Source: a virus. Taken from it: a stretch of DNA of 31,696 bases. The stretch lies in IMG/VR virus record IMGVR_UViG_3300024346_000312, positions 1 to 31,696 of that record. One strand, 5' to 3'. Both the position numbers and the translations under genes were made by a program. Every line of letters begins with the position of its first letter. Within the stretch, counting starts at the first letter, position 1. Positions 10,317-31,022 of this stretch are shown one piece after another. The notes under the pieces were generated by a model that was not told the origin of the DNA, did no database searches, and was given only the letters and a program-made list of their open reading frames with translations.

Positions 10317-10334
10317 TTCTAGAGAATTTTAGTG

Positions 10335-10345
10335 TGTTAAATATA
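10335..10345 (-). promoter_or_regulatory. Putative promoter element TATATTTAACA before the polymerase gene
   Basis: On the minus strand TATATTTAACA ends 18 bases before the ATG of the giant polymerase gene, inside a 40-base gap. The same 11-mer precedes the 235-aa gene, and a 10-base variant precedes the 1037-aa gene. TATATTTA resembles the Bacteroidota -7 box (TAnnTTTG) apart from its last base. I see no clear -33 TTG at normal spacing, so a phage factor may be involved, or the element may act in translation instead. Confidence 0.42.
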
Positions 10346-10356
10346 CAGATAATGTA

Positions 10357-13236
10357 TTAATTCCCTGCATTTGTTTCATCACTATTTTGTGATGTGGATG
10401 CAGCTCCTAGTGCCGTAATACCTGTAAGTATTGGTAAATTGTTCAGTAATTGTTGTAACGCTTTCACAGCCATGGTAGTTGCTTCATTCAAATCTTTTGC
10501 TCCATTGTTATACGCTTGTACCCGCAACATATCAGCAAAGCTGTCACTTACAGTACTTTTACCACTATTAATTTGGTTAAATATGTATCTAACATTTGAT
10601 TCAGGTACGTTATATCTACCCATCAGGTTTTCACCAAAACGTCCTTTAGTACTTATTTCAGTTCCTTTTTTAAATAGTGGTGAACCTTTAACTACATCAT
10701 CATCTAAAAGTTCTAATTTAAACTCTTTACGTAGCTGCATCATCCTTGCTTGAACTTCATCAGCCTCAGATGCATATCTCATCCAATCCAACTCTTCCTT
10801 AGACATCTTCTTAAGATACTTTGCGGCAGGACCTGTTATTTCCTCTCCATTAGCTGCTTTAGTTATTGCATCATCAAACATTGAATAACCTGTCCTTTTA
10901 CCTACCCAACCTTCTGCAAATTGTAAAAATGATTGTCCGTATTCACCTGTCTTATAGTTTTTAGACATCATCATATTGTGGAATGTTTCATGTATAGTTA
11001 CAGATTCTATCATTTCTGATAGGTTCTTACCATTAGGTACACTCATATATGCGTCTACTGCGGACTTTGCCTTTTCAAAATATAATTGACCGTTTGAGTA
11101 TGAAACACCGTTAGTAGTTCCAAAATTACCGCTAGCAATTTTTTCAATTTTTTGCCCTAAGTGTGGGTCTTTAAATGCACTAGATAATTCAGTTTTAAAA
11201 TTACCGCTGTTTAATTTTTTCATCATTGCATCCTTAACTTTTATCCTCTCTGCTGGAGGTAATAATCTTGCAAACTTGTCAAAGAACTGTGGATTAGATA
11301 TCCAATTTTTTGCGTATTCATTACCTTTATCTACAGATTCCTGCATAAGTTTTTTAGTCTTTGGTAATGATCTGTGAGCTACAGTAAAAGGTTTTTTTGC
11401 AATGGTGTATGCTTTACTACCTGCATCCATCATACTTTTCCATAACCTGTCATGTTCTTTTAAATAATCATCATAGCTTAACTTACCGTCTAAAACCGCT
11501 TGGTATAAACGGTTAGATTGGCCAGTATGTATTTTAACAGCCGCATTTACATAAGTTTTTGCAGTTCCTTGTGCAGCTTTCCTTAATGTACCTGCAAAAG
11601 ATGATACCTCCTTAGGAGCAAGTGACTCATTATTTGCAAACACATTTTTAAATGCTTCTTTACCAGTGTACGGTGTATCAAATACTTCAGTCAATTTCTT
11701 AGATTTTCCTGAAGCCATTTGACTAGCAGTGTGCATGTCCATTTCTGGATGCTCTTTAAGTATCTTATCTAATGCATCAAAATCCATTTCTTTTGACCCT
11801 ACGTTAGCCTCTTTAAACTTATTCCATTCTTCAAAAAGTCCAGAATATGAAGCGTCATCTTTAAATGCTGCATCACTTACTAAGTCTCTTTTTGTTGTTT
11901 TAGCCGCTGCCTCAGACCACTTTTTTATTGCCTCTGGATTCTGTCTACCAAATTCAGCAATAGCTTTAAGTTGAGGTTCTGTAAACTCTCTTCCAAGTAT
12001 GCCTTCCATTTCTTCTGATGTAACATCTTTAAAAAATGATTGAAAAATTTCTTGCTCATCCTGTTCCTTGAATAAGTTTTTAATTGCCTTATTTGCGGCA
12101 ATCTCATCATGGTTAAACATTGCATCATCAAACATTTTAATATGGTCTTCTTTGGCAACGTTAAATCCATCTGCAATATCATCAAACACACCTTTACCTT
12201 GCATAGATTTTTGCAGTCCTTTTCCTAATCCTACTGCTCCTTTGAACCCTGCTTTTAAGGCCCCCTTTATAACAAACGGATCTGATAATATGTCCTGGGC
12301 CATATTAGCATCATTATATGTTCCAGATAACCCTTCATAGAAATTGTAGTCTTCTCCTAGTGCGGTTTTAAAGTCTGTAATTCCCATACCAGTAAGTGCC
12401 CCTTGAACAACTTTAGAAGGATATTCTAATGCTGCCATTGCTGAAGTACCTAGGTGTGGATCTTTATATGTTTCTTGAGTATATCCTTTATTTTTAAAGC
12501 CTGCTCCTCCTGTATATGCAGTATTAAGCAGTCCTTGTTCTACTTCTTGTAGTAGATTTTTAGATGTTTTACTCCATATTTCAGAATCTTTTACATATTT
12601 CTGCTCTTTAGGAGTAAGACTATTTAAATAAGCTTCAGCTCCCTTTTCTTTCCATGCATCATTATATGGAAAAGATTTAAGAATATGGCTTGCAGTAGCT
12701 TCTTTTGCATATTTAGAACTTTCCTGTTCTTTTTGCTGCGTCTCATATTGTTTTCTACGGTATTCTGAACTACTAGCTTTAGCTGCTGTAGGAGAGAATG
12801 TACCAACCATACTTCTATCAGGCTCATCAGAGTAATACTTATTTTTATTATCTGTTTGCCACTGTGTTTGTTGGTTCTTGTAATAATCATCAAGGCCTAG
12901 ATTATAGGTAGTTTCCAATCCTGCCACTCTATTTTCTAGTGGAGTATCTTCTACAAAACTTACATCTCCTCCAATAGGTTTTAAGAACTGATCAGTTAGA
13001 CTAGGCGTAGGTTGTGCAAATGCTGGAAGTTCTTCTGCTGGAACAACCGTCCCATCACCTGCATATTGCTCCATTATAGGAAGTGTCTCTACAAAACCAT
13101 CAATACATCCGTGACATCCTTCCTTAATCCACTTTTTAACTTGTCCCCTTTTGTTTGCAGGAATGATTACATGGTCACCACTTTCATTTTTTAGAACTAA
13201 CTCATTATGTTCTGCTTCTACATTTAAATTCTTCAT
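10357..13236 (-). CDS. Large virion cargo protein with zincin-like metallopeptidase motif (959 aa)
   Basis: Probable packaged virion protein, immediately upstream of the polymerase gene. Residues 749-753 are HETFH, an HExxH zinc site, set in VTIHETFHNMM; E827 in the helix EADEVQARMMQLR is a possible third ligand. Zincin-like domains are known in the large proteins of this part of crAss-like genomes. Whether this one cuts virion proteins, host proteins or cell wall cannot be told. Residues 10-67 form a small N-terminal domain (ELVLKNESGD, IIPANKR, GCHGCID, then a LP-rich turn) of a kind I associate with this gene position. The middle is charged and helical, with an Ala/Gly-rich patch near 320-350. 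The last ~35 residues include a hydrophobic stretch (LPILTGITALGAAS). Its ATG overlaps the previous gene's TGA (ATGA), so translation is probably coupled. It ends in TAA. Confidence 0.78.
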   Translation of the reverse strand: MKNLNVEAEHNELVLKNESGDHVIIPANKRGQVKKWIKEGCHGCIDGFVETLPIMEQYAGDGTVVPAEELPAFAQPTPSLTDQFLKPIGGDVSFVEDTPLENRVAGLETTYNLGLDDYYKNQQTQWQTDNKNKYYSDEPDRSMVGTFSPTAAKASSSEYRRKQYETQQKEQESSKYAKEATASHILKSFPYNDAWKEKGAEAYLNSLTPKEQKYVKDSEIWSKTSKNLLQEVEQGLLNTAYTGGAGFKNKGYTQETYKDPHLGTSAMAALEYPSKVVQGALTGMGITDFKTALGEDYNFYEGLSGTYNDANMAQDILSDPFVIKGALKAGFKGAVGLGKGLQKSMQGKGVFDDIADGFNVAKEDHIKMFDDAMFNHDEIAANKAIKNLFKEQDEQEIFQSFFKDVTSEEMEGILGREFTEPQLKAIAEFGRQNPEAIKKWSEAAAKTTKRDLVSDAAFKDDASYSGLFEEWNKFKEANVGSKEMDFDALDKILKEHPEMDMHTASQMASGKSKKLTEVFDTPYTGKEAFKNVFANNESLAPKEVSSFAGTLRKAAQGTAKTYVNAAVKIHTGQSNRLYQAVLDGKLSYDDYLKEHDRLWKSMMDAGSKAYTIAKKPFTVAHRSLPKTKKLMQESVDKGNEYAKNWISNPQFFDKFARLLPPAERIKVKDAMMKKLNSGNFKTELSSAFKDPHLGQKIEKIASGNFGTTNGVSYSNGQLYFEKAKSAVDAYMSVPNGKNLSEMIESVTIHETFHNMMMSKNYKTGEYGQSFLQFAEGWVGKRTGYSMFDDAITKAANGEEITGPAAKYLKKMSKEELDWMRYASEADEVQARMMQLRKEFKLELLDDDVVKGSPLFKKGTEISTKGRFGENLMGRYNVPESNVRYIFNQINSGKSTVSDSFADMLRVQAYNNGAKDLNEATTMAVKALQQLLNNLPILTGITALGAASTSQNSDETNAGN

Positions 13237-16200
13237 CCTTGTTTAGGTATTACTAATCCGTGTTTAGCTTTAATTATTCCGTCTTTACCAGTTAGTTTTA
13301 CGCCTCCTTTTCCAATAGAAAGGTCTACACCTCCTTTAGCGTGTGTAGGCATTCCTGCTAAATCTTTTTGTATTGTCCATTTGGACCCTGGTGTAATGTT
13401 AGTAGTTCTTCCACCTACTTGTGCACAGATAGTACCGTCTTCTTCAGTGTATATAAGTTGGTTAGTTTCCTGAAGTTCTTCAATATCTATAAGGTCTTGG
13501 ATAGTTTGGTTCCCTTTCCTTTTATTTTGAAGTATCTTTTCAATAGATGCCGCCCTGTCCTGGTATATAGAAAGCTCTCTAATAGAAAGAGGCTGTCCTG
13601 TAGCTACTTTATCTGCAATAGCCTTTAGCCTTTTCTTGTAAACCTTGCCTTTCCTAGACTTCTTACCTTTAGAATCTACTTCTATCTCTGTCTTATCAGT
13701 AAACATTGTCCATTCCTTATTAGGTACTGCATCAGCAGTACTAGGACTTATAGTTGTGGTTTTACCTGTATTTTTTATCTTGCTTTTAGTAGCAGGTTTA
13801 GATGTAGATTTTGGCTTTGCAGTAGTATCTGCAGGCTTTAGAGGTACTAATTTAACATCAGAATTATTAATATCATGTTGTTGAAACTCAAACAAATTAC
13901 CTACAGAAGCTCTAGAAGATTCTGCTGTTCTTTTATGGTAATTAATCATAACAGGCATTGCAAAAATACCTTTAATTTCTTTCCCAAATCCTCTTTTAAT
14001 AACTACACGGTAGCCATTTTGCTGATCTGAATAAGACTGTCCAGTAGACTTTTCTAATTTACCTGTCTTCTTATTAGTGTATTGCTTGTAGAACTGGTCT
14101 TCTATAATGTTACCGTCCTGATCCATTTTACGCTGTGTCATTGTTTTAGTATCAATGATATACAGGTCACCAGTTTCATTATCTTCTACAAGTAAATCTA
14201 ATTCTCCTGCAACACCCAAGTCTAGGTCTGCAACCATTACCTTATCAGCGTAAACTGTTTTATTATGTAAGAAACCTCCTGGAGAAGTCAGCTTATTAAG
14301 GCCGTCAATAAGCTCTTGAAAAGCTTTCTCATTAAACACCGGATTCATTACGGGAGTTGTGGATACAGTCTCACCGTAAATAAACTGCGCATCAAATGGA
14401 CCGTTCATTACGTCCTCTACTGCAACATCATCTACTGCGTAATGTTCTCTGTTCTTTAATTCCCCTGTAAAATAGTCCCTAACAATAGCATCTGCTACTT
14501 GACCAATGATACTAGATGTTTTTAATATCTCATGGTTCTCTGCAGTAAGTTCAATCTGGTTTCCAACCCAGTTAGACATCCTATCAAGAATTGTAGTCTC
14601 ACCTGTTGAAGGGTCAGTATATACATAATTCTTTTGATCTGGTGTTCTGGTAATGTTACTAGATTTGGTAGTTATTTCATTACCTACTTTGTTAGCAGGA
14701 TTGGCAGCAATAGATTGGTTAGTGCTATAAGATCTTTTAGATGGAATTTCTGAAGGCTCTCCTATAATAGTTGTAGGACCTGAAAACAAAGTTTCACCAG
14801 TAATATCATCTTTAAGTTTTGTAGCATTGGTTGAAATAATTCCAGCACCTTCTAGGTACTTTTTGTATGCAGGGTTACCTAACATACTAGCTACTACCTG
14901 TCTCTTTCTATACTTCTTTAAAAATTCTGTGAAGTAAGGTTTAAGTTCACCTTTGAATTGTGATTGCGTCATACGCTCATCACCCATTCTAACAGTAACT
15001 TCGCCCTTCTTTGTTTGTTCCATTTTAAGAGTAGGCATGTTAAGGCTTTCTGTAGCACTACCTTCATATACTAAGAAGTTAAGTAAGTCCTTGAACTGTA
15101 CTGTAGATAAATCTAAAACTTCAGCAATACCTTTAATTCTGTAATCTTTAGAATCATCAATCATACGTAAGATCTCTTGACCTTCTGTACTATCAGCTAA
15201 TGGTGCAGTGAATAAATTTGGGTCCCCAAACTGTGCACTATAAATAGCATGTATAAGTTCAGCTTCTTCATCACTAATGTTCTCCACCATCATCCTAAGT
15301 GGGAATGTCTCACCGTTGGCTGCTAATATTTTAGCATAGATAGCTCCTGGTGAAGCAGAGAATAGTGCAAATAAATCTGGATCTGTAGCAACTTCACCAT
15401 CTATTTGTGTAGAGTACTTTTTACTTGCATTACCAAACACAAACTCTACCTGCTCAATAGGCATACCTATTGCTGAAGATACCGTGTTCTTAGCAAATTT
15501 ACCGTCTTGTGTATTAGGACTTTTATTTAAAGAACCTTTACGTTGCTCTACAATAGGAGTAGAAATTATATTCCCTTTCTTGTAGGAATCATAAACAGAA
15601 GTCTTTAATAATAACGTCTCATCTTTGGCCTTAGTTCTCTTATCTTCAGTTAGTTTATAGTTACCGTTTCTATCTTTTTTGTCAAAAAACGTAGGTAAAT
15701 GTAAAGTAGTTTTAATGTATGTATTAGAACCTGCATCATTTTTATAGAATGCAGGGTTACCTTTACCGTCCCTAAATATACCTATTACTGGTAGTGATGC
15801 TATCTCCTCATTAGTTAGAGGTTCCTTGTTTAAAACCTTACTTGCAATAGCAGCATATTCTTCTTGTTGCTGCAATGCTTTTAAATCAACAGCAAGTTCT
15901 ACTGTATAATCAAGCATGTTTATAGAAGGATCTTCTAAAAAGTTAGCTAGTGCAATAGCGTTAGCGTAATCCGTACTGTATATTTCCTCTACAGGTAATC
16001 CAGTATAACTATGCCATGCCAATGCATGTCCTGTTTCCGCCATAGCAGAATTGGACTCTTCAGTACCAGTTGGGTCTTCATTAACATTTTTCTCATCTAG
16101 TGCTGTTGGAACATTACCTCCAAATACAGTTCTAGCTTTAGCATCTGAAGCTCCAACTACTTTCTTATTCTTTTCATTAGCTCTTTGCTTACGTGCAGCA

Positions 16201-18701: not shown

Positions 18702-21154
18702 TATTTACGTTTATATGAAATGTATTTACTGTATTCTTCTGCTACCATTATAAGATTGGCTTTACTCTTAAAGATAAAAGGCTCTTGGTATTTAATACGC
18801 TCAATGTCTTGTTTTACAGATGAAGTTAATGTAGCAGTTTCACCTTTAGCTACCGCTTCAATTATAGTGTCAACATCTGCCTTTGATTTTGTAAGTGATA
18901 AATGAAGTGCTAATTGTTGCAATACATACATAGGACTTTTAAATCCAGGGTCTCCAGAATGTTTCATTACTTCAGAAACAGCCATTACAGAAAATGCGTT
19001 TCCATTTTTACCCATTGGCTCAGTACCACCAAGAAGATCAACATTAGAAACCCAACCTCTAGTATCTAGACTAACCTTGTTGCCTGACTTTTCATCAGGA
19101 ACTGCATACCCTAAAACATAATTACCGCCTTTATTTTTTGTAACTAGTGCTTCACTAACATTAGCTGCAGAAGGATCATTAGCAGCTTCTAATACAGTAG
19201 ACATTTGTGAGACATGGGCAGGAACATATACATCTTTCTTTTCCCAACCTCTTATCTGAGACGCTGTAGCGTTTTTACCAATAGTCCTTTGAAATAATTC
19301 TTGTAGCTTCTCATTACCTCTCCAATCCCCTGTAGGTTCTAAGATGTAAGTACCTCCAGGTATTTTAGTAGACTTTCCTGTTTCATAATCAGTCACTATA
19401 CCTTTTCTAGTAGTTATTTGTAACCTAGGTACATGTGGATTAGGGATTACAGCTGCAGTAAAGTGCGTTGCTGGTAGGTTCTGTAGAGAAGCTAGATCAA
19501 ATGACTGTCCTTCTTTAGTACCTGCAACAACTTTGTATTGGTTTGGCATTGATTGTGACGCAAGTAAATCTTCTACAATTTTACGTTCTTTCTCTAAACT
19601 TAATGTGTATGCCCTACCTAATTCAGCTTTAGTTCCTTCAGTTTCTTTTATAAAACCATCATGGTAATCATCAATACTATTACGTAAAGCCTGACCCTCT
19701 TTACCATTTCTAACTAACTGTACAGCCCTTTCAATATAGTTATCCATAGGGTTAGTCCATCCTTCAAGATCTTTAGGCGTTAGTCCAACATCTTCTAAAG
19801 GAATTACCACACCTTTTGGTAATCCAAATGGAGATATACCATTTTCATCAATTTTAGTTTTACCTGCTATATTGTCTATCCCAGAATATCTAGATCCAGG
19901 AGCTGCAGAGTTTGCATACTCTTGTGCAACCCGTCTTATAACATTATCCATAATGGTTGTAGTCTGCTCTCTAGTTTTACCATCAGGTAATTTAGCTTGG
20001 CCAGACTTTGCCATTAAAAGTTCAACTCTACTATTTAAGTACTCCTCACTAGTAAATCCAACAAGTGCACTATCTACCTTTTCAGCATTAGACTGTCCAG
20101 TGCTCTGTTCATATTTATGTAATTGATCCTGTAATTGGATAGAAGCAAATTGCTTATCAGAACCTGAAGCAGTTCCGCTGTAAATAGTTTCCCATAATTT
20201 GTCTGGCTGTAACTCTTTACCTTTCATAACAATTGCATCATCATATGATACACCACTAGATTGGTCTTGACTACCTACAGAAACAGCTTTATTAAGTTGT
20301 CCATCATAAACTTCTTTATAATCACCCCTTAAAAATTCACTACCAACACCTTGTAATGTTTCATACATGTGCGCTCTGAAATCTTTTTGTCTAGGATCAA
20401 TCTTTCCCTCATCTACAAGTCTATCATAATACCATTTTTCTTGCTCACCTGCATTACTTGACATCATAACACCAATGTTCTCATCAATAATTTTATTGAT
20501 TGTATTCATGCTAATAGTACTTGTACCTGTACGTATCCATTGTTCTAATCCGTCAAAAGTATCTTTACCGTATTTCTCTACAATTTTAGGTTTCAAGTTA
20601 TTGAAAAGTGTTTCATACTCTTTCCTTCTATTGATAGCGCCTGCAGCTTTCATTCCAATTGCACCTCTACCTTCAACACCACTATATATATCTTCTGTAT
20701 TAAGGCCTTCAAATTCTTGAAGCCTTTTATTCATCATATATTCATAGTCTCTGTTAAGTTTACCTTGAGCAAGAAGAGTAGTTTTAGTCTTATTGTAAGT
20801 CTCCATTTCTTTTGCTCTGGTAGTTATGTCCTTAAGAGTTGCATCATTACTAAGATCACCTACAAACCCTGCAATACGTTGTGCAGCATTACCTACAGAC
20901 ATATCACTATTGTACAGTTCTTGTACAAAAGGGTTAATAACCTTATCCCTATACATCTGTAAAGTTTTCTGGTCATTTTCAGTACCAGTTTTCAAATTAT
21001 AAGCAGATATCTTATCTAACTTTGCTCTCTCAATGTCCTGTCTTTTTTGCCTGTCTTTAAGATTAGACATTATAAGATCAACTGGAATTTGTTCTTGTAC
21101 AAAGTGAGACATTGGATCACTTGTTTTATATTGAAAATACGGATTAAAGCCCAT
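18701..21154 (-). CDS. Virion cargo protein, helical, function unknown (817 aa)
   Basis: I recognise no catalytic motif. It lies between two probable ejected proteins and is translated in step with both: TAATG overlaps at its start and at its end. The N-terminus (MGFNPYFQYKTSDPMSHFV) is followed by a charged helical segment near residues 25-60 and by long mixed helical sequence rich in K, E, D, T and Q. There is no signal peptide and no clear membrane span. By position it matches the second large gene after the muzzle in crAss-like genomes, whose products are virion components. A structural or cargo role inside the capsid or tail barrel is inferred from context only. The ATG at 21154 is preferred because it sits in the overlap and there is no better upstream start. 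It ends in TAA. Confidence 0.7.
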   Translation of the reverse strand: MGFNPYFQYKTSDPMSHFVQEQIPVDLIMSNLKDRQKRQDIERAKLDKISAYNLKTGTENDQKTLQMYRDKVINPFVQELYNSDMSVGNAAQRIAGFVGDLSNDATLKDITTRAKEMETYNKTKTTLLAQGKLNRDYEYMMNKRLQEFEGLNTEDIYSGVEGRGAIGMKAAGAINRRKEYETLFNNLKPKIVEKYGKDTFDGLEQWIRTGTSTISMNTINKIIDENIGVMMSSNAGEQEKWYYDRLVDEGKIDPRQKDFRAHMYETLQGVGSEFLRGDYKEVYDGQLNKAVSVGSQDQSSGVSYDDAIVMKGKELQPDKLWETIYSGTASGSDKQFASIQLQDQLHKYEQSTGQSNAEKVDSALVGFTSEEYLNSRVELLMAKSGQAKLPDGKTREQTTTIMDNVIRRVAQEYANSAAPGSRYSGIDNIAGKTKIDENGISPFGLPKGVVIPLEDVGLTPKDLEGWTNPMDNYIERAVQLVRNGKEGQALRNSIDDYHDGFIKETEGTKAELGRAYTLSLEKERKIVEDLLASQSMPNQYKVVAGTKEGQSFDLASLQNLPATHFTAAVIPNPHVPRLQITTRKGIVTDYETGKSTKIPGGTYILEPTGDWRGNEKLQELFQRTIGKNATASQIRGWEKKDVYVPAHVSQMSTVLEAANDPSAANVSEALVTKNKGGNYVLGYAVPDEKSGNKVSLDTRGWVSNVDLLGGTEPMGKNGNAFSVMAVSEVMKHSGDPGFKSPMYVLQQLALHLSLTKSKADVDTIIEAVAKGETATLTSSVKQDIERIKYQEPFIFKSKANLIMVAEEYSKYISYKRK

Positions 21155-24100
21155 TAGTATTTGTTTTTAGTTGGAATTAAATTTAAAGCGGCTAAATTAC
21201 TTTTAGGGATTACTCCTCCTTTACTGAATTTAAAATTGTCCATCTCAGTAGTATACTGATCTTGGGTAATATTACCCGCCTTATAGTCATTGTATAATAA
21301 GTCTCTATGGTCTGTAGTACCTGTTGTTGGTGTAGAAGCTTGTCCAGCATTACCATAATTACCTTTATAATGATTACTTCCCTGACCGTAGTAATAATCC
21401 GGGGTTACTAGCTGCTTTTCTTGAATACCCATTAGGTCATACATAGCGTCTGTCTGTCTAACATCTTTAAGTGCTCCTGCAGCCTTATATCCAAGACCTT
21501 TAATAGCTTCACCTTGTGCTGTTTGTTTAGCACCTTTAGCTTTAAGGTTAAACATTGTCTCTTTATCTCCTTGTGAAAGGTTAATTTTATTAGCCTCATT
21601 CTGTAATCCTACATTAGTGACTTCTTCTTTTTGGTGTGACGTTCCTAAACCTTGAGACAGCTGTGCATTTATTGCAGCATTACTAGCAGCTAAATTTGAA
21701 AGTTGTTGTCCTGAACTTGTAGCGGCAGATCTTACATTTTCTCTACCAATAGCATTTGCTGTAGCCGCTTGGTTCCTAAGAGCTATTCTTTCTCTTTCAA
21801 GATCTACTAATTCTGGGTTATATCTTCCAAGACTTAATTCATCAATAGGACGCATAGAGTTAATTAAACTATATACATCTCCTGCAGAAGATAATCCTGC
21901 ACCTGTCCAGATATTTCTTTTAGCGCCAGGCATTTTATCTTCATACCTTTGATCAATCTCAGCGTTTCTTTCTTCTAAGAATTTTGCATATCCAGCTCCT
22001 CCATCACTTTGTCCACCATAGTTTGATCTATCATATGGCTCATTACCGTTACCAGTACTATTTCCATTTCCGTTGCCAGTATTTGCATTAGTACCTGTAC
22101 CAGACTGTGACTGTTCCCAGGCTTGGGCATCTTTAAATACTTGTGAATGTTCAGGACCAAATCTTTCAGTACCTGCGCCAGTTTCTCCGTCTTTTCTAAT
22201 ATCTCTTTTATACTGTGGAAATATTTCATCCATACTCTTACCTTGAGACTTAGCATATGCATCATACAAATTGTAAATCTCTACATCTGTATATGGAGTA
22301 CCATCTGCTTTTGAAGGTCTAGATTGTCCTGGTGTAAAAGAATATGGTGTACCTCCTTGAGCAGGTGTTGCTGCCGCAGGATTAGTAGTAGGATTAGCTA
22401 CTGTAGGCTGTACTACTGTTTTTGGATCAACAACTACCTGTGCATTTTTTACTGCTGCATTTGGATCTACAGCCGTGCTATCATTTCTATACTCTGTTTT
22501 TGTAAAGTCACTATCTAAGAAATCAATACCTGATTTTGTGTCTACTTTAACTGCAGAATCTGGTATAGTTTCTGTGTCAGAATATTTATTATATCTCTGT
22601 ACATATTCTGGAGCATTGGCCATAACATTTGGATCATTTATATCTAATCCCTGCTTCTCAGCCAACTCTAACCACTCATTAATTCTATTTCTGTCTCTTC
22701 TTTTTATCTTATCTCCATTAGGATATTTGTCCCCTTTTATTGGACCGCCTACACCATATTGCTTTGGTTGAAAAGGGCCTCCTCCTGCAAGTATATCACC
22801 ACCCATAGCAGCCATCATTTGGTTAGGGTCCATTCCTGGAGCCATACCTTCTGGAACTGGTCCACCTGGTGCAGGCATTTCTGGTGCAGGGTTCTGTGGG
22901 TTCTGTGCAAAGTCAGCACCTGTTACACCACCTAAATCTTCAATCTGCTTTTGTAGTGCTGCAACTTTCTCAGCTTTAATCTGTTCCTGTTTTGTAGCAA
23001 GTGCTTGTAGCTCCTGATCTTGTGCTTTCTTTGCAGCAGCGTCACCATACCTATCTTCACCTTTTGCTGTCTTATATTTCTTTTTAATCTTCTTTGCCGC
23101 ATCTGCTACAGTAACACCTTTCTCTACTTCTATTCTATTAGAAAAAGCAAATTTAGTCATGTCTCCACCTTTACCTGGCATATCAGCAACTACTTCACCT
23201 TCTTCTACTAGAGCATTAGGTCCTTGTGGAACTCCACCTATTGGGCTTTGTTCATGTGTACCTCCAGCATTAATTTCAGCAACGCCTCCATTAGACATTA
23301 AACCACCATTGGCAAATGATGAAGCTCCAGCTGCCATAGCTTTAGCGTAGTCAGCATCATAAGCTGCCTGTCCTACAGGTGCCTGACCAATATTACCTGT
23401 TGCCATTCCGCCTGCCATACCTGCAAAATTTCCCACTGCGTTTACAGCTCCTGCATTTTTCTTTCCCCACTTAGTACCACTAGAGATACCTTGAGATAAT
23501 CCTCCTGCAATATCATCTGCTCCAGCAGCTAGACTAGAACCTCCTGTAGCAACTGCAGTTCCTATTGCTCCGGCTGCCTGTCCATACCCCATAAGAGCCT
23601 TATCTTGGTCTGTAATGTCTTTATCCAATGCCCCATGTAAGGCATCAATACCTTGATTGGCAACCATACCTAAAGGCCCTGGCAATAAAGAACCTGCAAT
23701 TCCTTTACCAGCTCCTGCCAATACTGCTCCAGCACCAGATAGTATATCTCCACCTTTTGCATATATTGCGCCTCCGTGCATCATTTGTTGTTTCTGCATC
23801 ATTTGTTGGTATGCAGCTACCATTTCTGGTGTCATATTATTCATAGCGTTTTGCTTTTGTATCTTTGATTGTGCTGTTTCCAGCCCCTGTAATTCATTAA
23901 AAGTAGATAGATCACTTGTGGAACTAGCCCCTTTACTTATTTGATCTACTGAAACGTTTTGTAATGCGCTGTTAGTGGGGTACATGCTACCACCATTTCC
24001 AAAAGTATATCTAAGTGCTGCATTATAGTTAGTATAAGGATTACCCTCACTTGATCCGCGTGTAGCTCCTAAACCAACATTAAGATTTGGATTAACTTGA

Positions 24101-24267
24101 TAGTTAAGTGCTGCACCTAGTTGTTGATAGTAAGGGTTCTTTTCACCATGAACGTTAAGGTTTACAGGATTTATATAAAGTTCTGCACCTCCACCTACAC
24201 TGTTAGGTGATGCTTGTAAATAAGCATCCGTAACTCTTGGAATTTTTGGATTTTTCTTTTTAGGCAT
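21154..24267 (-). CDS. Gly/Ala-rich virion cargo protein (1037 aa)
   Basis: First large gene after the muzzle, the position of a virion cargo protein in crAss-like phages. Residues 25-90 look like alternating amphipathic beta strands (AELYINPVNL, LGAALNYQV, LNVGLGATRG), ending in ALRYTFG as outer-membrane barrel strands do. Residues 164-300 are Gly/Ala-rich with weakly hydrophobic helices (GAGAVLAGAGKGIAGSLLPG). At 321-358 a GG-rich motif occurs (ANGGLMSNGGVAEI, AGGTHEQSPIGG, LVEEGEVV) of a type I associate with crAss-like cargo proteins. Pro/Gln-rich and Asn/Gly-rich linkers lie near 455-500 and 721-759. Residues 803-925 are helical and Ala/Gln-rich. The protein ends with SKGGVIPKSN. I infer an ejected protein that may contact or cross membranes; no enzyme motif is seen. 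An 84-base gap with a palindrome and a putative promoter precedes it. It ends in TAA, overlapping the next ATG. Confidence 0.75.
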   Translation of the reverse strand: MPKKKNPKIPRVTDAYLQASPNSVGGGAELYINPVNLNVHGEKNPYYQQLGAALNYQVNPNLNVGLGATRGSSEGNPYTNYNAALRYTFGNGGSMYPTNSALQNVSVDQISKGASSTSDLSTFNELQGLETAQSKIQKQNAMNNMTPEMVAAYQQMMQKQQMMHGGAIYAKGGDILSGAGAVLAGAGKGIAGSLLPGPLGMVANQGIDALHGALDKDITDQDKALMGYGQAAGAIGTAVATGGSSLAAGADDIAGGLSQGISSGTKWGKKNAGAVNAVGNFAGMAGGMATGNIGQAPVGQAAYDADYAKAMAAGASSFANGGLMSNGGVAEINAGGTHEQSPIGGVPQGPNALVEEGEVVADMPGKGGDMTKFAFSNRIEVEKGVTVADAAKKIKKKYKTAKGEDRYGDAAAKKAQDQELQALATKQEQIKAEKVAALQKQIEDLGGVTGADFAQNPQNPAPEMPAPGGPVPEGMAPGMDPNQMMAAMGGDILAGGGPFQPKQYGVGGPIKGDKYPNGDKIKRRDRNRINEWLELAEKQGLDINDPNVMANAPEYVQRYNKYSDTETIPDSAVKVDTKSGIDFLDSDFTKTEYRNDSTAVDPNAAVKNAQVVVDPKTVVQPTVANPTTNPAAATPAQGGTPYSFTPGQSRPSKADGTPYTDVEIYNLYDAYAKSQGKSMDEIFPQYKRDIRKDGETGAGTERFGPEHSQVFKDAQAWEQSQSGTGTNANTGNGNGNSTGNGNEPYDRSNYGGQSDGGAGYAKFLEERNAEIDQRYEDKMPGAKRNIWTGAGLSSAGDVYSLINSMRPIDELSLGRYNPELVDLERERIALRNQAATANAIGRENVRSAATSSGQQLSNLAASNAAINAQLSQGLGTSHQKEEVTNVGLQNEANKINLSQGDKETMFNLKAKGAKQTAQGEAIKGLGYKAAGALKDVRQTDAMYDLMGIQEKQLVTPDYYYGQGSNHYKGNYGNAGQASTPTTGTTDHRDLLYNDYKAGNITQDQYTTEMDNFKFSKGGVIPKSNLAALNLIPTKNKY

Positions 24268-24274
24268 TGTCTAA

Positions 24275-24292
24275 TTTTAACAGGTGTTAAAA
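24275..24292. promoter_or_regulatory. Perfect-arm palindrome TTTTAACA-GG-TGTTAAAA upstream of the 1037-aa gene
   Basis: An 18-base inverted repeat with 8-base arms and a 2-base centre, 8-25 bases upstream of the start codon at 24267. On the minus strand no T-run follows, and the stem is AT-rich with a very short loop, so it does not look like an intrinsic terminator. It is more likely an operator-like dyad or an RNA hairpin near the ribosome site. It overlaps the conserved TATTTTAACA element. Confidence 0.4.
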
Positions 24293-24294
24293 TA
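24285..24294 (-). promoter_or_regulatory. Putative promoter element TATTTTAACA before the cargo operon
   Basis: On the minus strand TATTTTAACA ends 17 bases before the ATG of the 1037-aa gene. It is a one-base-shorter variant of the TATATTTAACA found before the 235-aa gene and before the polymerase gene, at nearly the same distance from the start. It lies in the largest intergenic gap of the window (84 bases) and would begin the unit covering the four cargo genes. Confidence 0.38.
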
Positions 24295-24351
24295 CCCATT
24301 AAAATTGACAATAGAAAAAACTGAAATAACTTTCTTTGGAATTGATATACC

Positions 24352-27300
24352 CTAATCCCTTGCAATCACATATGAGGTAATTACATCATGTAATACCAAG
24401 CGTCTATCATTAGCATTATCATATGATAGCTTTAAGAATATATGGTAATCACGGAATCTTGCCTTACGGTGCCTAGACTCTTGAGTATTAGAGTTTTGAT
24501 CTCTTATTAAAGCATGTCTCCAATGTCTCATTCTACGCTTAACATTGGTAGGTACTGTTACTGGAATTACACCAGAAGCTTGATAATCTGTATAATACTC
24601 TAAACTTGTTACAGTCTCATCTCTTTCATTAGATGTATACTCTCCATCAATATCTTTAGAAAATATCTCAGAGTTGTATTCTAAATTATTAAATAGTTTA
24701 GGAATGTCCGCTGCAGGAGATATTAGTAATGTAATATAAGAAGGTGCAGGATCTTTGTCATAGAACACACCTCTCTCCCCAACATTATGTAAATATGCTT
24801 TAGAAAAACTTCCTAGAAGTGGTCCAGGATTCTCTGCAGATAATACTCTTCTACCTGCCTCTAAATATAAAGACGGTGTAAAACTGTAGAAAGATTCAAA
24901 TGAATCTAAATACTCATTAAACCCTATAGTAAAATCTTTTACTTCTGGATCTGGATCAGAGAATAAGAAAGTAAACAATACTCTGTTATATCTATAGTCA
25001 TATACACCATGTATACCTACAGGCCTTAGTACACCTGATTGGTTACGTAGAGTTCTATCAGTGTTAATTATTGCATGCTTAACATTCTTATGGAAGAATG
25101 AAGACATTCCTTCTACATCTCCTAAAGGTACTGCACCATTACCTGCTAGTTTATATATCTTATTTAAATAAGTATCATAATGGTAGATGTTGTTGTTTGA
25201 TTTAACAACACCAAACTGGTGAAAGCTTCCTGTCTCAGTAGAAATATATCTAAAGTGGTCTAAAATAGATCCTGTACCCACAGCTACTTCTACACCAGAA
25301 GTATCAGTAATCATAGATCTCTCATTGATAGAGCCTACACCAAACCCTCTGTTCTGGTAGAACAAAAGCTTATCTTGGAAATTAACTACCTTATTAATAG
25401 GTCCATAAGTACCTTCAACTTCTATGTAGTTATTGTCCTTGAATATTCTCCAATTATCTATAAACTCCCCATCAAACTTTTTATCAGAAGCCCATAACCT
25501 ATGAGGAAATTCTTCTGTGGTTTTTGAAGCAAAATCTTCAGCAAAAGATTTACCTTCTGAGTTGTTTTGCTGTGTATATACAGGAACTGTAGAATATACG
25601 TCTGTAACATATGCCGCAGTGTCTTCACCATCTCTATCTTTATCAAAATATCTACCTAAAGCTAAAGCAGTGTTAATATAAGATTCTGTAGGCATCATGT
25701 AAGCTACAGACATTCTTCTATCTACTTCTGGCGGTGCTAAGTGGCCAGGATTTTGAACTTCTTCGCTATTGTAGTGATGTATAAATTCTTTTGCAAAGTA
25801 ATTTACATAAGTATCACCTCCATATACTTGAACCTGTATAACATTAGGAATATCTTTAGTTACAGGTTGGTAATGATTAGTAGAAATGTATTTTTGCTTA
25901 CTCCTATCTTCATAATTTGCACCACCATATTGTTTTTGTAAAGGCCTTATATAAGCAACTTCTTTTAATCTAAATATTTGTGCAGTAGTTAACGAAGCAC
26001 CGTCAGGATCATTATATTCTACTGCCCCCACTTGTAAGTTAAAATTCCACTCTTGTGCAGAACCCGCAACATGGTTACCTTGTCCACTACTTCTAAACGT
26101 CATGTAATAGGTATCATTGCCTATACCTAAAGGCGCATCCGTTTGAGAAGTACCAGAAACTTTACCGTAAGAAGTGTTCAAAAATCCATTACCTATATGA
26201 GATTCAGATAGTTTTCCGTCTTTGTCTGGTATATGTTCTCCATCTTCTAAGTAGTGCCCCTCTTCAATTTTTAAGCTTTCAAACCCTATTGCTGGTAAAG
26301 GATATACTACATCTTCAAATTCTCTAGCAATCCATACCCATCCTTGGTTTTCCATGTCACTATTACTGTCAGTATTTCTAACATACTGTGCCGCACGTGC
26401 TTTATAGTATCCATATGTTTTAACATAATCACCAGATTTAAGTTCATACCCATTATCCTCTCTAAAATAATTTAAAGGGGACATGTAACTTACAGATGCT
26501 TTTGTACTTGCAAAAGCTAATTGAGGGCCTTCATACCCTCCATGAGATATTTCATTAAATCCCGGCTGATCTGATAAATGAAACACTAAAGGTATTTCGT
26601 CTGAACTAGCATTTTCATCATATAGTAATATGTCTTCTGCCCCTACTTGTACAGTTATACCGTTATTTTTTTCAGCAAATATTTCATATAAAGTATTTTT
26701 ATATGGATTTTTATCTCCAACATCATCGTCATCTTGCCTCTGATCACATACAAAAAATGTACCTGTACCTAACCTGGTTCTATCTGAAGAAGTTCTTTCT
26801 GCACGTACTATTCTATAGCCACTAATTTCATCTCTAACAGTTGTTATATCTACTTCAAATAGTATACCTAATGTGTTTAGTTTAAGAGCTTCTTCTGTAT
26901 CTAAAGGCCCAGTACCTACTGTAAAATCATTTGACCCATCAGAATCTACTGGTTCAGGAAATTTAATATCTCCAATCCAAGATGTAAATGTAGGCTTACC
27001 TTTTAAATTTATAAACTCTATTCCAAATCTATATACTTCTCCTCTAGCATATCCAGTTAGATATGTTTCTATAATAGGAGAATTAAAATTATTGTATTGG
27101 CCAGAAGCATCTACACTTACTGGAGCGCCTGTATAATCTAAATCACCTAAACTAATATTACCTGCAGATCTTGCTACATTAGCAAATGGTGCGCTCCTTC
27201 TAATAGTATCAGCAGGTTTACTATCATGGTCTAAAGGCGTTGTTACAAAAGTGTATTTTATATTAGGACCTTCCCCTCCCAAAGTTACACCGTCAGATTG

Positions 27301-28680
27301 ATATTTGTACTGGTACAGTGTATTCCAGTCTGGGTTAGTGTCAGGGTTATCATCATTATAATAGTTAATAGCGTCATGCTCTTCATCTATAGTGGTCCAA
27401 TCAACTACAGGGTTTGACCCTACAATAGTTTTATCAACACCGTTAATAAATAATTCAGTACCTGAAGTTTCATCTTTTATTCTAGCAGACTGTATACTGC
27501 TAAATCTGTAAGCTCTTGTATCATACCCAACTACTTCTGCTATAGGTGTTTTTATATTACCTGCAATTATTCTATTGTCTTTTATGTCAATAGTTTTACA
27601 GGTTTCAAATCCTATAGATACTGTAGAAAGTTCTACTTGTGATATAGGTATAACATCTTCAGAACCGTCTAGTACTACTTCTAATTCACCTGAACTAGGC
27701 ACAGAATCTTCTCCAAATTTAAAGATACTTGGTACATCATTATCAGAATATATAACAGCTATGTGCTCAATTATATCATAATTACTACTAATACCTGTAA
27801 CTCTAAATGTAACAGATTTAGAATTAGATGATAGCGGGTCCGTACCTATAAATTCATGGTAACTTTTTGATTTATCATCATAGTCTGTTAAAAATACTAA
27901 TGAGGATGTTGGAGATATTATAGTTTGTACTCCTGTAAAGCTAATCAATCTACATGCATATTGTACTTTACTTCCAGTAGTAAGATTGCCAATACCTACA
28001 GATAATACGTTAGCTTTTGGAAATATTACATTAGGCTTAGAATCTATATCATTTGGGGATATTGTAGTTATCTTACCTGCCGGGTAGCTACCGCCTTCTT
28101 CTAAAGATCTTGCTAAAGGGTCTGCATTTTCAGATATATTTATAGAACGTAATTGATTGTGAAAATCTGTCCAATACACTTTAGAAGTTACACTATTCTC
28201 TTTTCTACCTACAGCCTCTATCCTGTGAAAAGTTGAAAGGTTTAATTTATGATTATATTTTAAATGTACTAAAGGGTCTAGCTCATTACCGGGTAATAGT
28301 CCTATAACTGTATTTGTAGTCTCATCATATTTAATAGACCATATTTGTCCATATGAACTTGACGGGTTAGGTGCAGACTCATTTGTAGTAAATATTACAA
28401 TATCATTTTCAATAGTAGTCCAACCTACAATTTTTAAATCTTCTTGTAAAGGTACATTTGCCTGTGTTCCATCTAAAAAACATACGTCAGGTTCTGCAGG
28501 TAGGTCAGGTATAACAAAGCTAAGAGTATTACCTCTTTCATTCTCAATAGATCCTGTAGATAACCCGTCATCCGTAACAACCCTTATATTAAGGGCATCA
28601 TAATAATTAGCTTGATCATACTTTGACCTACTAGTATCTTGGTTTAATCCTTTGCTATATGTGTTACGGTGCTTAGCCAT
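24352..28680 (-). CDS. Tail muzzle / tail stabilisation protein, crAss-like (1442 aa)
   Basis: Large structural protein at the tip of the short tail barrel. The N-terminus (RNTYSKGLNQDTS, YYDALNIRVV, GSIENERGN within residues 5-50) is the signature I recognise for the crAss-like muzzle protein, and the length fits. Most of the chain looks beta-rich, with many short strands and Asp/Asn/Gly turns. Around residues 1110-1180 there is a run resembling a propeller or receptor-barrel repeat (DKLLFYQNRGFGVG, ISTETGSFHQFGVV, YHYDTYLNKIYKLAG). The C-terminus has a basic stretch (KRRMRHWRH) and ends FRDYHIFLKLSYDN...LHDVITSYV. No enzyme motif is seen. It follows the 262-aa ring gene after two bases, as expected for an assembly unit. 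It is the only complete gene here that ends in TAG; reading through would add 24 codons up to a TAA at 24277-24279. Confidence 0.85.
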   Translation of the reverse strand: MAKHRNTYSKGLNQDTSRSKYDQANYYDALNIRVVTDDGLSTGSIENERGNTLSFVIPDLPAEPDVCFLDGTQANVPLQEDLKIVGWTTIENDIVIFTTNESAPNPSSSYGQIWSIKYDETTNTVIGLLPGNELDPLVHLKYNHKLNLSTFHRIEAVGRKENSVTSKVYWTDFHNQLRSINISENADPLARSLEEGGSYPAGKITTISPNDIDSKPNVIFPKANVLSVGIGNLTTGSKVQYACRLISFTGVQTIISPTSSLVFLTDYDDKSKSYHEFIGTDPLSSNSKSVTFRVTGISSNYDIIEHIAVIYSDNDVPSIFKFGEDSVPSSGELEVVLDGSEDVIPISQVELSTVSIGFETCKTIDIKDNRIIAGNIKTPIAEVVGYDTRAYRFSSIQSARIKDETSGTELFINGVDKTIVGSNPVVDWTTIDEEHDAINYYNDDNPDTNPDWNTLYQYKYQSDGVTLGGEGPNIKYTFVTTPLDHDSKPADTIRRSAPFANVARSAGNISLGDLDYTGAPVSVDASGQYNNFNSPIIETYLTGYARGEVYRFGIEFINLKGKPTFTSWIGDIKFPEPVDSDGSNDFTVGTGPLDTEEALKLNTLGILFEVDITTVRDEISGYRIVRAERTSSDRTRLGTGTFFVCDQRQDDDDVGDKNPYKNTLYEIFAEKNNGITVQVGAEDILLYDENASSDEIPLVFHLSDQPGFNEISHGGYEGPQLAFASTKASVSYMSPLNYFREDNGYELKSGDYVKTYGYYKARAAQYVRNTDSNSDMENQGWVWIAREFEDVVYPLPAIGFESLKIEEGHYLEDGEHIPDKDGKLSESHIGNGFLNTSYGKVSGTSQTDAPLGIGNDTYYMTFRSSGQGNHVAGSAQEWNFNLQVGAVEYNDPDGASLTTAQIFRLKEVAYIRPLQKQYGGANYEDRSKQKYISTNHYQPVTKDIPNVIQVQVYGGDTYVNYFAKEFIHHYNSEEVQNPGHLAPPEVDRRMSVAYMMPTESYINTALALGRYFDKDRDGEDTAAYVTDVYSTVPVYTQQNNSEGKSFAEDFASKTTEEFPHRLWASDKKFDGEFIDNWRIFKDNNYIEVEGTYGPINKVVNFQDKLLFYQNRGFGVGSINERSMITDTSGVEVAVGTGSILDHFRYISTETGSFHQFGVVKSNNNIYHYDTYLNKIYKLAGNGAVPLGDVEGMSSFFHKNVKHAIINTDRTLRNQSGVLRPVGIHGVYDYRYNRVLFTFLFSDPDPEVKDFTIGFNEYLDSFESFYSFTPSLYLEAGRRVLSAENPGPLLGSFSKAYLHNVGERGVFYDKDPAPSYITLLISPAADIPKLFNNLEYNSEIFSKDIDGEYTSNERDETVTSLEYYTDYQASGVIPVTVPTNVKRRMRHWRHALIRDQNSNTQESRHRKARFRDYHIFLKLSYDNANDRRLVLHDVITSYVIARD

Positions 28681-28682
28681 TA

Positions 28683-29471
28683 TTAGTTATTTTCTAAATT
28701 GTCAAAATAATCATCTCTTTCTACTTCATTACCAGAAATTCCTGTAGATGTATAAGAGTTATGTGATATTCTTTCTTCTTGGTTTCCTAGTGAGGAAAAG
28801 AAATCCTCTTGTTGGTTAATTTTAGGTATAAGTCTAATCCAGTTATTTTTAATATTCTCCATTTGATCTACAGAAGGCATTGCTCCCCTAGTCTGTGCTG
28901 CACCAATATACCATAATTGCTCTTGTAATGTTCTATCATAAACACCTGGTTGTATTTTACCTGCACGTAATAATCTATAATCTATCTTTTCCCTAATATA
29001 AAATTCTACCGCCCTGACAAATTTAATATCATCTGGTATAGCTGGCCAACCGTTCTTGTCAGTTGCAAACGCCATATACGCCATCTCAACCGTACCGCCA
29101 GAAAAATCCACAAAAATGCAATCATCAGAAACACGGTAAGTGTAACTAGAAGAACAGTCAAGATCTTTAGAATTATTGCAATGTGTTTTAGAATGGAATG
29201 TATTAGTAGCATAGCGCATTGGGGAATACCCCTTTTCTGTTTTAATTCTTGTTTGAGCTATCTGATGTAAATCACATGGTAAGTCTCCCCTACCATCTGT
29301 AATTTCAATACTAGCTACTTTCTCACTGTAAGATTGAGGAGCGCCTATCAGCTCCATACATTCTGCAGCCCATTCTATGCAATCATAAATGTCTACGCCT
29401 TCAACAATACCAGTATTCCTGAAAACTTTTTCAACTATATATTGTACGCTCTTTGTCTTACCGTTAAACAT
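28683..29471 (-). CDS. Probable tail ring/adaptor protein next to the portal (262 aa)
   Basis: Probable head-tail adaptor-like ring protein of the tail barrel, matching by place and size the crAss-like ring protein encoded just before the muzzle (from memory, gp43 of PhicrAss001, ring R1). The N-terminal region is helical (YIVEKVFRNT, CIEWAAECMELIG), followed by a beta-rich part with DGRGDLPCDLHQIAQTR at about 59-75. The C-terminal half is helical and ends in PSVDQMENIKNNWIRLIP at 199-216, then an FFSSLG turn and a polar tail, a pattern typical of this family. The fold is thought to resemble podovirus adaptor proteins (P22 gp4, T7 gp11). It lies two bases upstream of the muzzle gene and two bases downstream of the 86-aa gene. 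The start has no Shine-Dalgarno sequence; the stop is TAA. Confidence 0.72.
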   Translation of the reverse strand: MFNGKTKSVQYIVEKVFRNTGIVEGVDIYDCIEWAAECMELIGAPQSYSEKVASIEITDGRGDLPCDLHQIAQTRIKTEKGYSPMRYATNTFHSKTHCNNSKDLDCSSSYTYRVSDDCIFVDFSGGTVEMAYMAFATDKNGWPAIPDDIKFVRAVEFYIREKIDYRLLRAGKIQPGVYDRTLQEQLWYIGAAQTRGAMPSVDQMENIKNNWIRLIPKINQQEDFFSSLGNQEERISHNSYTSTGISGNEVERDDYFDNLENN

Positions 29472-29473
29472 AA

Positions 29474-29734
29474 TTAAAAGTTTATATATTTAATTGCTTG
29501 AGCTACTGATGTAGGCTCTTCATCTTTTACCTTACCTTTTTTATCAGGCATTGGATCTTCTTTAGAAATCCATTTCTTTTTTGTTACCTTGTATTCTCCA
29601 TCTACCATATCAGTAGTTGTAACGCACACAATGTAACCATTCTCTACTTGAGTAATAGTAATTTCTTTAGTGCAATCATTTTTAGTTACACGCTTACTTC
29701 TTACCTTATATTCATTTTTACCGTAATCCATCAT
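29474..29734 (-). CDS. Small conserved phage protein, function unknown (86 aa)
   Basis: Short, strongly charged protein with a likely beta-sheet core (KEITITQVENGYIVCVTTTDM, DGEYKVTKKKWI) followed by an acidic/lysine-rich linker and a final AIKYINF. No known domain is recognised. It belongs to the ring-protein operon: its ATG overlaps the upstream TGA (ATGA), and the downstream ring gene begins two bases after its TAA. There are two adjacent ATG codons; the first is taken because it forms the overlap. From context it could be a minor virion or assembly protein, but nothing in the sequence proves this. Confidence 0.65.
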   Translation of the reverse strand: MMDYGKNEYKVRSKRVTKNDCTKEITITQVENGYIVCVTTTDMVDGEYKVTKKKWISKEDPMPDKKGKVKDEEPTSVAQAIKYINF

Positions 29735-30297
29735 TTTAAATAGTAATTTACTTTAATACTTGGGTCTTTTAAAATCTGTGCAAGTGCTCTTTTATTTGTC
29801 CTTGTAGACTTAAACTTATACACTGTCTTATTTGTAAAGTTACCAGTATGTACGTTAAGATACCAAAAAGGAATGTAACCATTGGTATGTTCGTTAGTAT
29901 GTCTTAGTAATTTTTTTTGCTCTTTAGATTCTTCATCTTCACTCCAAAGCTCTAACGTAGATTTCCAATCAATAGGCATCCTATTAACCATAGTACCATC
30001 TTCAAGGAAATAAACTTTACGTTTCTTCTTTTTAATACTAAGTGTGCCCATTCTAGCAGGTAACTTGTATTCAAAGTTATCAAACATTATAGCTTCTGAT
30101 ATAGCTGAATTAAAGTCTCCTATTATTCTAGTGTACACTCCTCTGTCAATAGAGTATATAGAATTATGGTGAACTTTAGTTTTATTATCCTTACGCTCTT
30201 TAAACGTAGAATAACAATAGTACTTGTAGAAGTCATCTATTCCAACATGCACTTTGTGTTTTTCTTGTTGCTTACCTTTACTTACGTGGTTGTACAT
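29731..30297 (-). CDS. Conserved phage protein of the tail operon, function unknown (188 aa)
   Basis: Basic protein that I recognise only as a type found between two ring-protein genes in crAss-like genomes. It has an aromatic N-terminal motif (DDFYKYYCYSTFKER, residues ~22-36), a central helix (YTRIIGDFNSAISEAIMF), then KLPARMGTLSIKKKKRK with a marked lysine/arginine patch near 87-96. The C-terminal half has WYLNVHTGNFTNKTVYKFK and a helical tail. The basic patch could bind nucleic acid, but no fold is assigned. The gene starts inside the end of the 235-aa gene, overlapping it by 20 bases, and its TGA overlaps the next ATG. This close packing suggests translational coupling and equal expression with the ring proteins. 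Confidence 0.68.
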   Translation of the reverse strand: MYNHVSKGKQQEKHKVHVGIDDFYKYYCYSTFKERKDNKTKVHHNSIYSIDRGVYTRIIGDFNSAISEAIMFDNFEYKLPARMGTLSIKKKKRKVYFLEDGTMVNRMPIDWKSTLELWSEDEESKEQKKLLRHTNEHTNGYIPFWYLNVHTGNFTNKTVYKFKSTRTNKRALAQILKDPSIKVNYYLK

Positions 30298-30985
30298 TAC
30301 CTAATTCTTTTGACTCTCCATCATTAATATTATCCTCCGGCATTTGTAAACTCATTACAAGCTCTCTAACTACCTGTTCTTTTATGTAAGGTATCATCCA
30401 ATCATTTACAGGGTATTGATCATCTTTAGAAAAACAAGATTCTCCGTTAGTAGTACAGAACTCTTCAACTTTTGTAGGGTCTTCAAATACTCCCATGATA
30501 TTTACTCTGGTAAGAAACTTGGCTATTGTACCAGTAACTTTAAAGTACATCCTGTCTTCATATAAAAATGCATACACTACATCCTTAGAAAACTTACCTT
30601 CACCTGAAAAAGGAGCTTGCTGGTAAGGTATATAAGAAAAGAAATAACTAAGCTTATCTACTGGACCTACTTTTGTAATAGCTGTCTTGTGATGTAACTC
30701 AATTGTTTTAGGTATAGTACATTTTGTTTTTAGTATTGTACATCCAGAAGGAATATCTGGACATTCAGAACTATCTGCAGTGACTAGTTCTACACAACCT
30801 AATGACTGTACTAGAAAAGAATCTAATGTACGTCCAGGTTTATTAAACTCATTTCTAAGTTGTAATGCCCTTTGTACATTCAGTTTGTATATGACCAGAC
30901 GCTCATCTATATCTAAGTCATCTGATACTGCATTAGATCTAACGTCTTCTAGTATATCATATACTATTTCATTTAAAGTAGCCAT
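30278..30985 (-). CDS. Probable tail-barrel ring protein, crAss-like (235 aa)
   Basis: Structural protein of the tail barrel, similar in sequence pattern and place to the crAss-like ring protein that I recall as gp40 of PhicrAss001 (ring R2). The N-terminus is helical (TLNEIVYDILEDVRS, YKLNVQRALQLRNEFNK). The middle has LVQSLGCVELV, four cysteines at 64, 75, 82 and 89, and CTIPKTIELHHK. Beta strands follow (VVYAFLYEDRMYFKV), then VNIMGVFEDPTKV at about 161-173 and a C-terminal helix (VNDWMIPYIKEQVVRELVMSL). The cysteines are frequent for a cytoplasmic phage protein, but whether they bind metal is open. It is the first gene after a 37-base gap that carries a putative promoter, and so probably begins the ring-muzzle unit. 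The stop TAA lies inside the next gene. Confidence 0.72.
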   Translation of the reverse strand: MATLNEIVYDILEDVRSNAVSDDLDIDERLVIYKLNVQRALQLRNEFNKPGRTLDSFLVQSLGCVELVTADSSECPDIPSGCTILKTKCTIPKTIELHHKTAITKVGPVDKLSYFFSYIPYQQAPFSGEGKFSKDVVYAFLYEDRMYFKVTGTIAKFLTRVNIMGVFEDPTKVEEFCTTNGESCFSKDDQYPVNDWMIPYIKEQVVRELVMSLQMPEDNINDGESKELGNVQPRK

Positions 30986-31000
30986 TGGTAGTCAAGTTTA

Positions 31001-31011
31001 TGTTAAATATA
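31001..31011 (-). promoter_or_regulatory. Putative promoter element TATATTTAACA before the ring-protein operon
   Basis: On the minus strand TATATTTAACA ends 15 bases before the ATG of the 235-aa ring gene, within a 37-base gap. It is identical over 11 bases to the element before the polymerase gene. There is no Shine-Dalgarno sequence and no obvious -33 TTG box, so the element itself is the only candidate signal in the gap. Confidence 0.42.
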
Positions 31012-31022
31012 AGGAACTTTAA

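Follow-up and report, generated by a model that had tools for sequence, protein, structure and literature searches.

Whether an 11-letter element, TATWTTTAACA, marks the late promoters of a crassvirus, and whether such promoters would still be written in the code of the host, are the questions raised by the IMG/VR contig IMGVR_UViG_3300024346_000312. The stretch analyzed here, 31,696 nucleotides (31.7 kb) and hereafter called the window, covers the late region of the phage, with the main genes all on the minus strand. An earlier sequence-only reading proposed that the three gene junctions with real intergenic gaps share this element on the coding strand, as a promoter or alternatively an operator, and that they separate a ring-muzzle, a cargo, and a polymerase unit within the block. 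Judged from sequence comparison, the three gaps are probably the heads of separately transcribed late units, and the shared element would be a diverged late promoter core. The gaps and the elements within them are as follows.

30986..31022, minus strand: gap 1 (37 nt), before ring protein 2, head of the ring/muzzle unit; the sole non-trivial gap ahead of the ring block
31001..31011, minus strand: element 1, TATATTTAACA, candidate -7-like late promoter element, 15 nt before the ATG at 30985
24268..24351, minus strand: gap 2 (84 nt), between the muzzle and cargo protein 1 genes, head of the cargo unit
24285..24294, minus strand: element 2, TATTTTAACA, candidate element overlapping a hairpin loop, 17 nt before the ATG at 24267
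10317..10356, minus strand: gap 3 (40 nt), head of the RNA polymerase (RNAP) gene
10335..10345, minus strand: element 3, TATATTTAACA, candidate -7-like late promoter element, 18 nt before the ATG at 10316

The coordinates, the coding-strand orientation, the spacings of 15, 17, and 18 nt, and the identity of the two 11-mers all proved correct, and no other gap in the window is longer than 2 nt; the other gene starts have neither a gap nor the element. The motif family had four coding-strand matches in the window, three of them inside the gaps, which together make up 161 nt (0.5% of the sequence). The fourth, at 27886-27896, lies within the muzzle gene, and one further match is on the other strand. 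The sequence-only reading had named equal frequency of the motif within genes as grounds for dropping the idea, and the count in the 31.7-kb window, with 3/4 coding-strand sites in gaps, goes against such equality. When the 11-mer alone was counted with one mismatch allowed, there was no over-representation in the window (3 found vs 3.05 expected). It is only the placement of the 11-mer that is unusual, not its number. Element 1 was identical in contig L003, which is 99.6% identical to the window.

The similarity of the gaps was measured against 20,000 dinucleotide shuffles. All three gaps contained the 7-mer TTTAACA at distances from the ATG that agree to within ±3 nt (p=5e-5), an exact 11-mer was shared by any pair of gaps with p=0.0076, and a same-position 11-mer pair together with its 7-mer in the third gap appeared in 0.015% of the shuffles (p=1.5e-4). 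Among triples of real gaps, each drawn from different related phages, the value was 1.4e-3 for the 7-mer and 3.75e-4 (0.04%) for both criteria. Because these statistics were framed after the motif had been seen, a tenfold discount is fair and the evidence from joint similarity is real but moderate. The ungapped comparison of all three gaps was not significant over 11 columns (p=0.2) and gave p=0.03 over 8 columns, indicating that gap 2 matches gaps 1 and 3 weakly and needs a one-base deletion to align.

The corresponding junctions in relatives carry clear promoters. The promoter of sigma-ABfr, the primary sigma factor of Bacteroidota, consists of a -33 TTTG and a -7 TANNTTTG, the latter being TAHHTTTG in Flavobacterium johnsoniae, where a clear -33 is often missing (PMC6847099). 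Approximately 100 crassvirus loci from IMG/VR provided 152 gaps for 7-mer enrichment, and the top words of this unbiased search were ATATTTG, TATCTTT, ATCTTTG, and TATTTGT, which are the Bacteroidota -7 box; TTTAACA was mildly enriched (8 vs 3.0). In annotated crassviruses, the canonical promoter was present in 4/5 gaps at the ring2 junction (shuffle mean 0.4), in 6/6 at the cargo1 junction (0.8), and in 5/8 at the junction of the virion RNAP (vRNAP) gene (0.5). At ring2, TTG-N18-22-TAHHTTTG was found in crAss001, cr106, cr128, and DAC15; the same four phages had a bipartite promoter at vRNAP and, joined by phi14:2, at cargo1, while Dulem 41 had a -7 box at both of the latter. Directly upstream of the cargo promoter, crAss001 (L225), DAC15 (L231), cr128 (L229), and Dulem 41 (L234) have a strong terminator-like hairpin with T-rich sequence after it, which makes the muzzle-cargo junction look like a real boundary between units. 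Because relatives carry canonical promoters at precisely these three junctions, the three-way division first proposed from the letters alone, with a ring-muzzle, a cargo, and a polymerase unit, is well supported by strong and independent evidence. The units of phi-crAss001 and DAC15 are divided at the same ring2, cargo1, and vRNAP junctions as those of the window, but their promoters are canonical -33/-7 ones, and the window lacks the terminator-like hairpin that precedes the cargo promoter in crAss001, DAC15, and cr128. RNA-seq of crAss001 showed that late genes begin at 30-60 min and that expression of the RNAP subunits gp49/gp50 is separate from that of gp47; transcription by host RNAP was suggested for its middle and late genes (PMC8375218).

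At the three window junctions, TATWTTTAACA would take the place of the canonical Bacteroidota -33/-7 promoter seen at the equal junctions of relatives. That the sites function as promoters seems fairly likely, an activity that we infer from sequence, and RNA may start a few bases past the element, which would make the leaders about 10-15 nt long. The resemblance to sigma-ABfr promoters lies in the position, which is that of the relatives' late heads, in TATATTT as the first seven letters of the element at gaps 1 and 3, and in the weak -33 that is usual in Flavobacterium. With a -7 matrix derived solely from other phages, TATATTTA was the top match in gap 1 (p=0.083) and gap 3 (p=0.088). The canonical TAHHTTTG was absent from the three gaps and from the sequence close upstream, which leaves no promoter candidate there better than the element. 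Of the near-invariant -7 bases, 5/6 were present at gaps 1 and 3 and 4/6 at gap 2, which falls short of a -7 box.

Several observations weigh against promoter function. The near-invariant G-5 is missing at all three sites, as is T-6 at gap 2, and sequence inspection found no -33 TTG or TTTG about 18-22 nt upstream of the -7 box at any of them. Gap 2 had no support from the -7 matrix (p=0.96), so the initial description of the element as partly like the -7 box but without a -33 box stands for gaps 1 and 3 and fails for gap 2, where the likeness of the element might stem merely from the local repeats that form a hairpin. L007 (muzzle 46% identical), which is the closest relative that has gap 2, retains only TATGTTAA there and has no hairpin. 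Among the other phages searched, the element was found ahead of no late crassvirus gene. Finally, phi14:2 has no gap ahead of its vRNAP gene.

Promoter function could be reached by two routes. The first, which we hold to be a real possibility though below an even chance, is that the sites are ordinary sigma-ABfr promoters whose -7 box is degenerate (A for G-5) and which host RNAP reads in its unmodified form, with AACA being coincidental. The frequent lack of a clear -33 in F. johnsoniae promoters (PMC6847099) accords with this, and inspection of the muzzle-cargo gap revealed degenerate -7 boxes in three relatives, namely TTG-N20-TATTTTTA (L028), TTG-N20-TATATTAC (L023), and TTG-N20-TACTTTCG (L009), so simple drift is possible. 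However, those relatives retain the TTG, whereas all three window sites lost both TTG (none at N17-22) and G-5, with an A in place of the G in 3/3; a missing -33 is ordinary in Flavobacterium, but the loss of the G is unusual. The 4-base AACA extension common to 3/3 sites also speaks against coincidence.

The second route, on balance somewhat unlikely, is that a phage sigma-like factor, activator, or RNAP reads TATWTTTAACA as a phage-specific promoter. The host box is missing at all three late heads while the element is common to them, and for crAss001 it has been suggested that gp49/gp50 play a late role within the same infection cycle (PMC8375218). Nevertheless, no candidate factor is visible within 31.7 kb, gap 2 matches poorly, no other phage was found with the element, and publications favor host RNAP for the late genes of phi14:2 and crAss001. 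The non-virion RNAP of AR9 recognizes the late promoter AACA-N6-T(A/G) (PMC5312081). AACA is also part of the window element, but AR9 is an unrelated phage, and a late promoter of the AR9 type was rejected, for N6-T(A/G) fits gap 1 and not gaps 2 and 3. Two other candidates were also set aside. As an early promoter for the virion RNAP, the element found no parallel in the early gaps of phi14:2, which hold only two TTTAACA and no enriched related word, and a scan for sigma-70 promoters gave fewer sites than in shuffles.

Chance, or an AT-rich leader upstream of the starts that serves translation and is no promoter, is quite unlikely to account for the element. The mild enrichment of TTTAACA in relatives' gaps and the non-significant ungapped three-way match favor such an origin, yet similarity on both criteria arose in so few of the real gap triples, the gaps coincide with the promoter junctions of relatives, and the remaining window starts lack gap and element alike. 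The operator alternative, in which the element is a half-site of a dimeric regulator, is very unlikely: gap 2 does contain a 9-bp perfect palindrome, ATTTTAACA-CC-TGTTAAAAT (p=0.009), but gaps 1 and 3 have none above chance (p 0.81 and 0.82), and the TTTA..TAAA pairs on which the idea was based occur at 0.95 per kb across the window, about 1 per kb regardless of the gaps.

At the cargo start, the promoter candidate is combined with a second feature. The sequence-only reading placed the element of gap 2 correctly and overlooked a hairpin lying against the start codon.

24268..24310, minus strand: hairpin of 43 nt with 17 bp, one bulge, and an 8-nt loop (24286-24293), its 3' end being the base before the cargo start codon

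The predicted folding energy was -14.9 kcal/mol; at the other starts checked it was 0 to -2.4, and random 43-mers of the window had a mean of -4.7 and a standard deviation of 2.8 kcal/mol. The z of the hairpin was -2.8 to -4.0 depending on the stretch used. An RNA starting past the element would contain only the 3' arm, without the 5' arm at 24294-24310, and was predicted to be unfolded (-0.6 kcal/mol). The hairpin is not conserved in L007, the single close relative compared (z +0.5). An intrinsic terminator was rejected here: the hairpin is followed by AUGCCUAAAAAG with no U run, and a terminator scan found none at this site. Searches of the three gaps for structured RNA or tRNA gave no Rfam or tRNA match.

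A similar arrangement is known from the leaders of T4 gene e and I-TevI, in which read-through RNA is locked by a hairpin and late RNA starting inside the hairpin is free (PMC3014915). Gap 2 of the window likewise places the candidate promoter element within a stable hairpin at the start of translation, and its predicted geometry, with an inferred start site, fits an RNA without the 5' arm. By analogy, ring/muzzle read-through RNA would form the cargo hairpin and be translated poorly, whereas cargo RNA begun at the local promoter, being without the 5' arm, would be accessible for translation. The differences are that Bacteroidota do without a Shine-Dalgarno sequence and that the window hairpin is not kept in L007. 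A translational lock at the cargo start is a tentative and rather doubtful proposal, less certain than the promoters. The full scheme, in which all three late heads moved off the host promoter code to the phage's own TATWTTTAACA, read by a phage factor or RNAP, with the cargo hairpin as a lock, appears unlikely.

The element was also sought in other phages. The element followed by ATGGCT was found in 117 IMG/VR stretches, and among the 80 listed it was mostly within genes. The fetched loci had crassvirus protein matches that were few, weak, or limited to single shared genes. The exact gap 2 sequence was found nowhere else in IMG/VR. The 5' part of gap 2 (24324-24351) resembles L007 6339-6366, around AAAGAAAGTT, despite the muzzle identity of just 46%.

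In none of the crassvirus literature that we located are late promoters defined by sequence, and the comparison above provides a concrete map of where host-type boxes lie in several annotated phages, namely at the junctions of ring2, cargo1, and vRNAP. Such boxes would explain how separate timing of the late blocks is possible. The window phage would be a naturally occurring example of switches that kept their positions while their letters changed, and the changed letters bear on the question of the polymerase responsible for late transcription in crassviruses; the cargo-start hairpin suggests that timing is also controlled at the level of translation.

The assignment of the window to Crassvirales is based on its ring, muzzle, cargo, and single-chain RNAP genes, whose order is as in crassviruses. 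The principal genes are listed below.

30278..30985, minus strand: ring protein 2, first gene of unit 1 (Pfam PF25702 CrAss_Ring_2, E=2e-39)
28683-29471, minus strand: ring protein 1 (Pfam CrAss_Ring_1)
24352..28680, minus strand: muzzle protein, last gene of unit 1 (phrog_28748, E=1.3e-126; tblastn match to crAss001 gp44, a muzzle protein)
21154..24267, minus strand: cargo protein 1, first gene of unit 2 (Pfam PF25725 crAss_CARG1, E=3.4e-12)
3..10316, minus strand: vRNAP catalytic subunit, unit 3 (SDFDIDK motif; 3' end beyond the contig)

The window vRNAP shared 34% identity with the catalytic RNAP subunit of phi14:2 (E=3e-47). Two small proteins of the late block are encoded at 31023-31433 (weak match to phrog_3342) and 29474-29734 (without a PHROGs family). 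Direct comparison found no DNA-level similarity of the window to phages, and no IMG/VR relatives were obtained with vRNAP, cargo, or a 1822-aa protein as the query.

The early gene gaps of phi14:2 were nearly devoid of TAHHTTTG, unlike its late region (L236, L226, and L237, covering early and middle genes), a pattern consistent with virion RNAP for early genes and host RNAP for late ones. In many aquatic relatives, TATATTTG was located about 5 nt before the ring ATG; the distance was exactly 5 nt in the aquatic crassviruses L062, L063, L073, L075, L081, L082, L084, and L086, and the spacing at phi14:2 cargo1 was equal to it. With a start 4-5 nt past the box and the box 5 nt before the ATG, a leaderless mRNA would result. 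A scan of metagenome-assembled genomes for muzzle relatives yielded distant ones only. Five muzzle relatives (L239, L241, L242, L243, and L244) were on contigs binned as Cloacimonadota, Spirochaetaceae, Sphaerochaeta, Zoogloea, and Bacilli, which are either non-Bacteroidota hosts or bins holding misassigned phage contigs.

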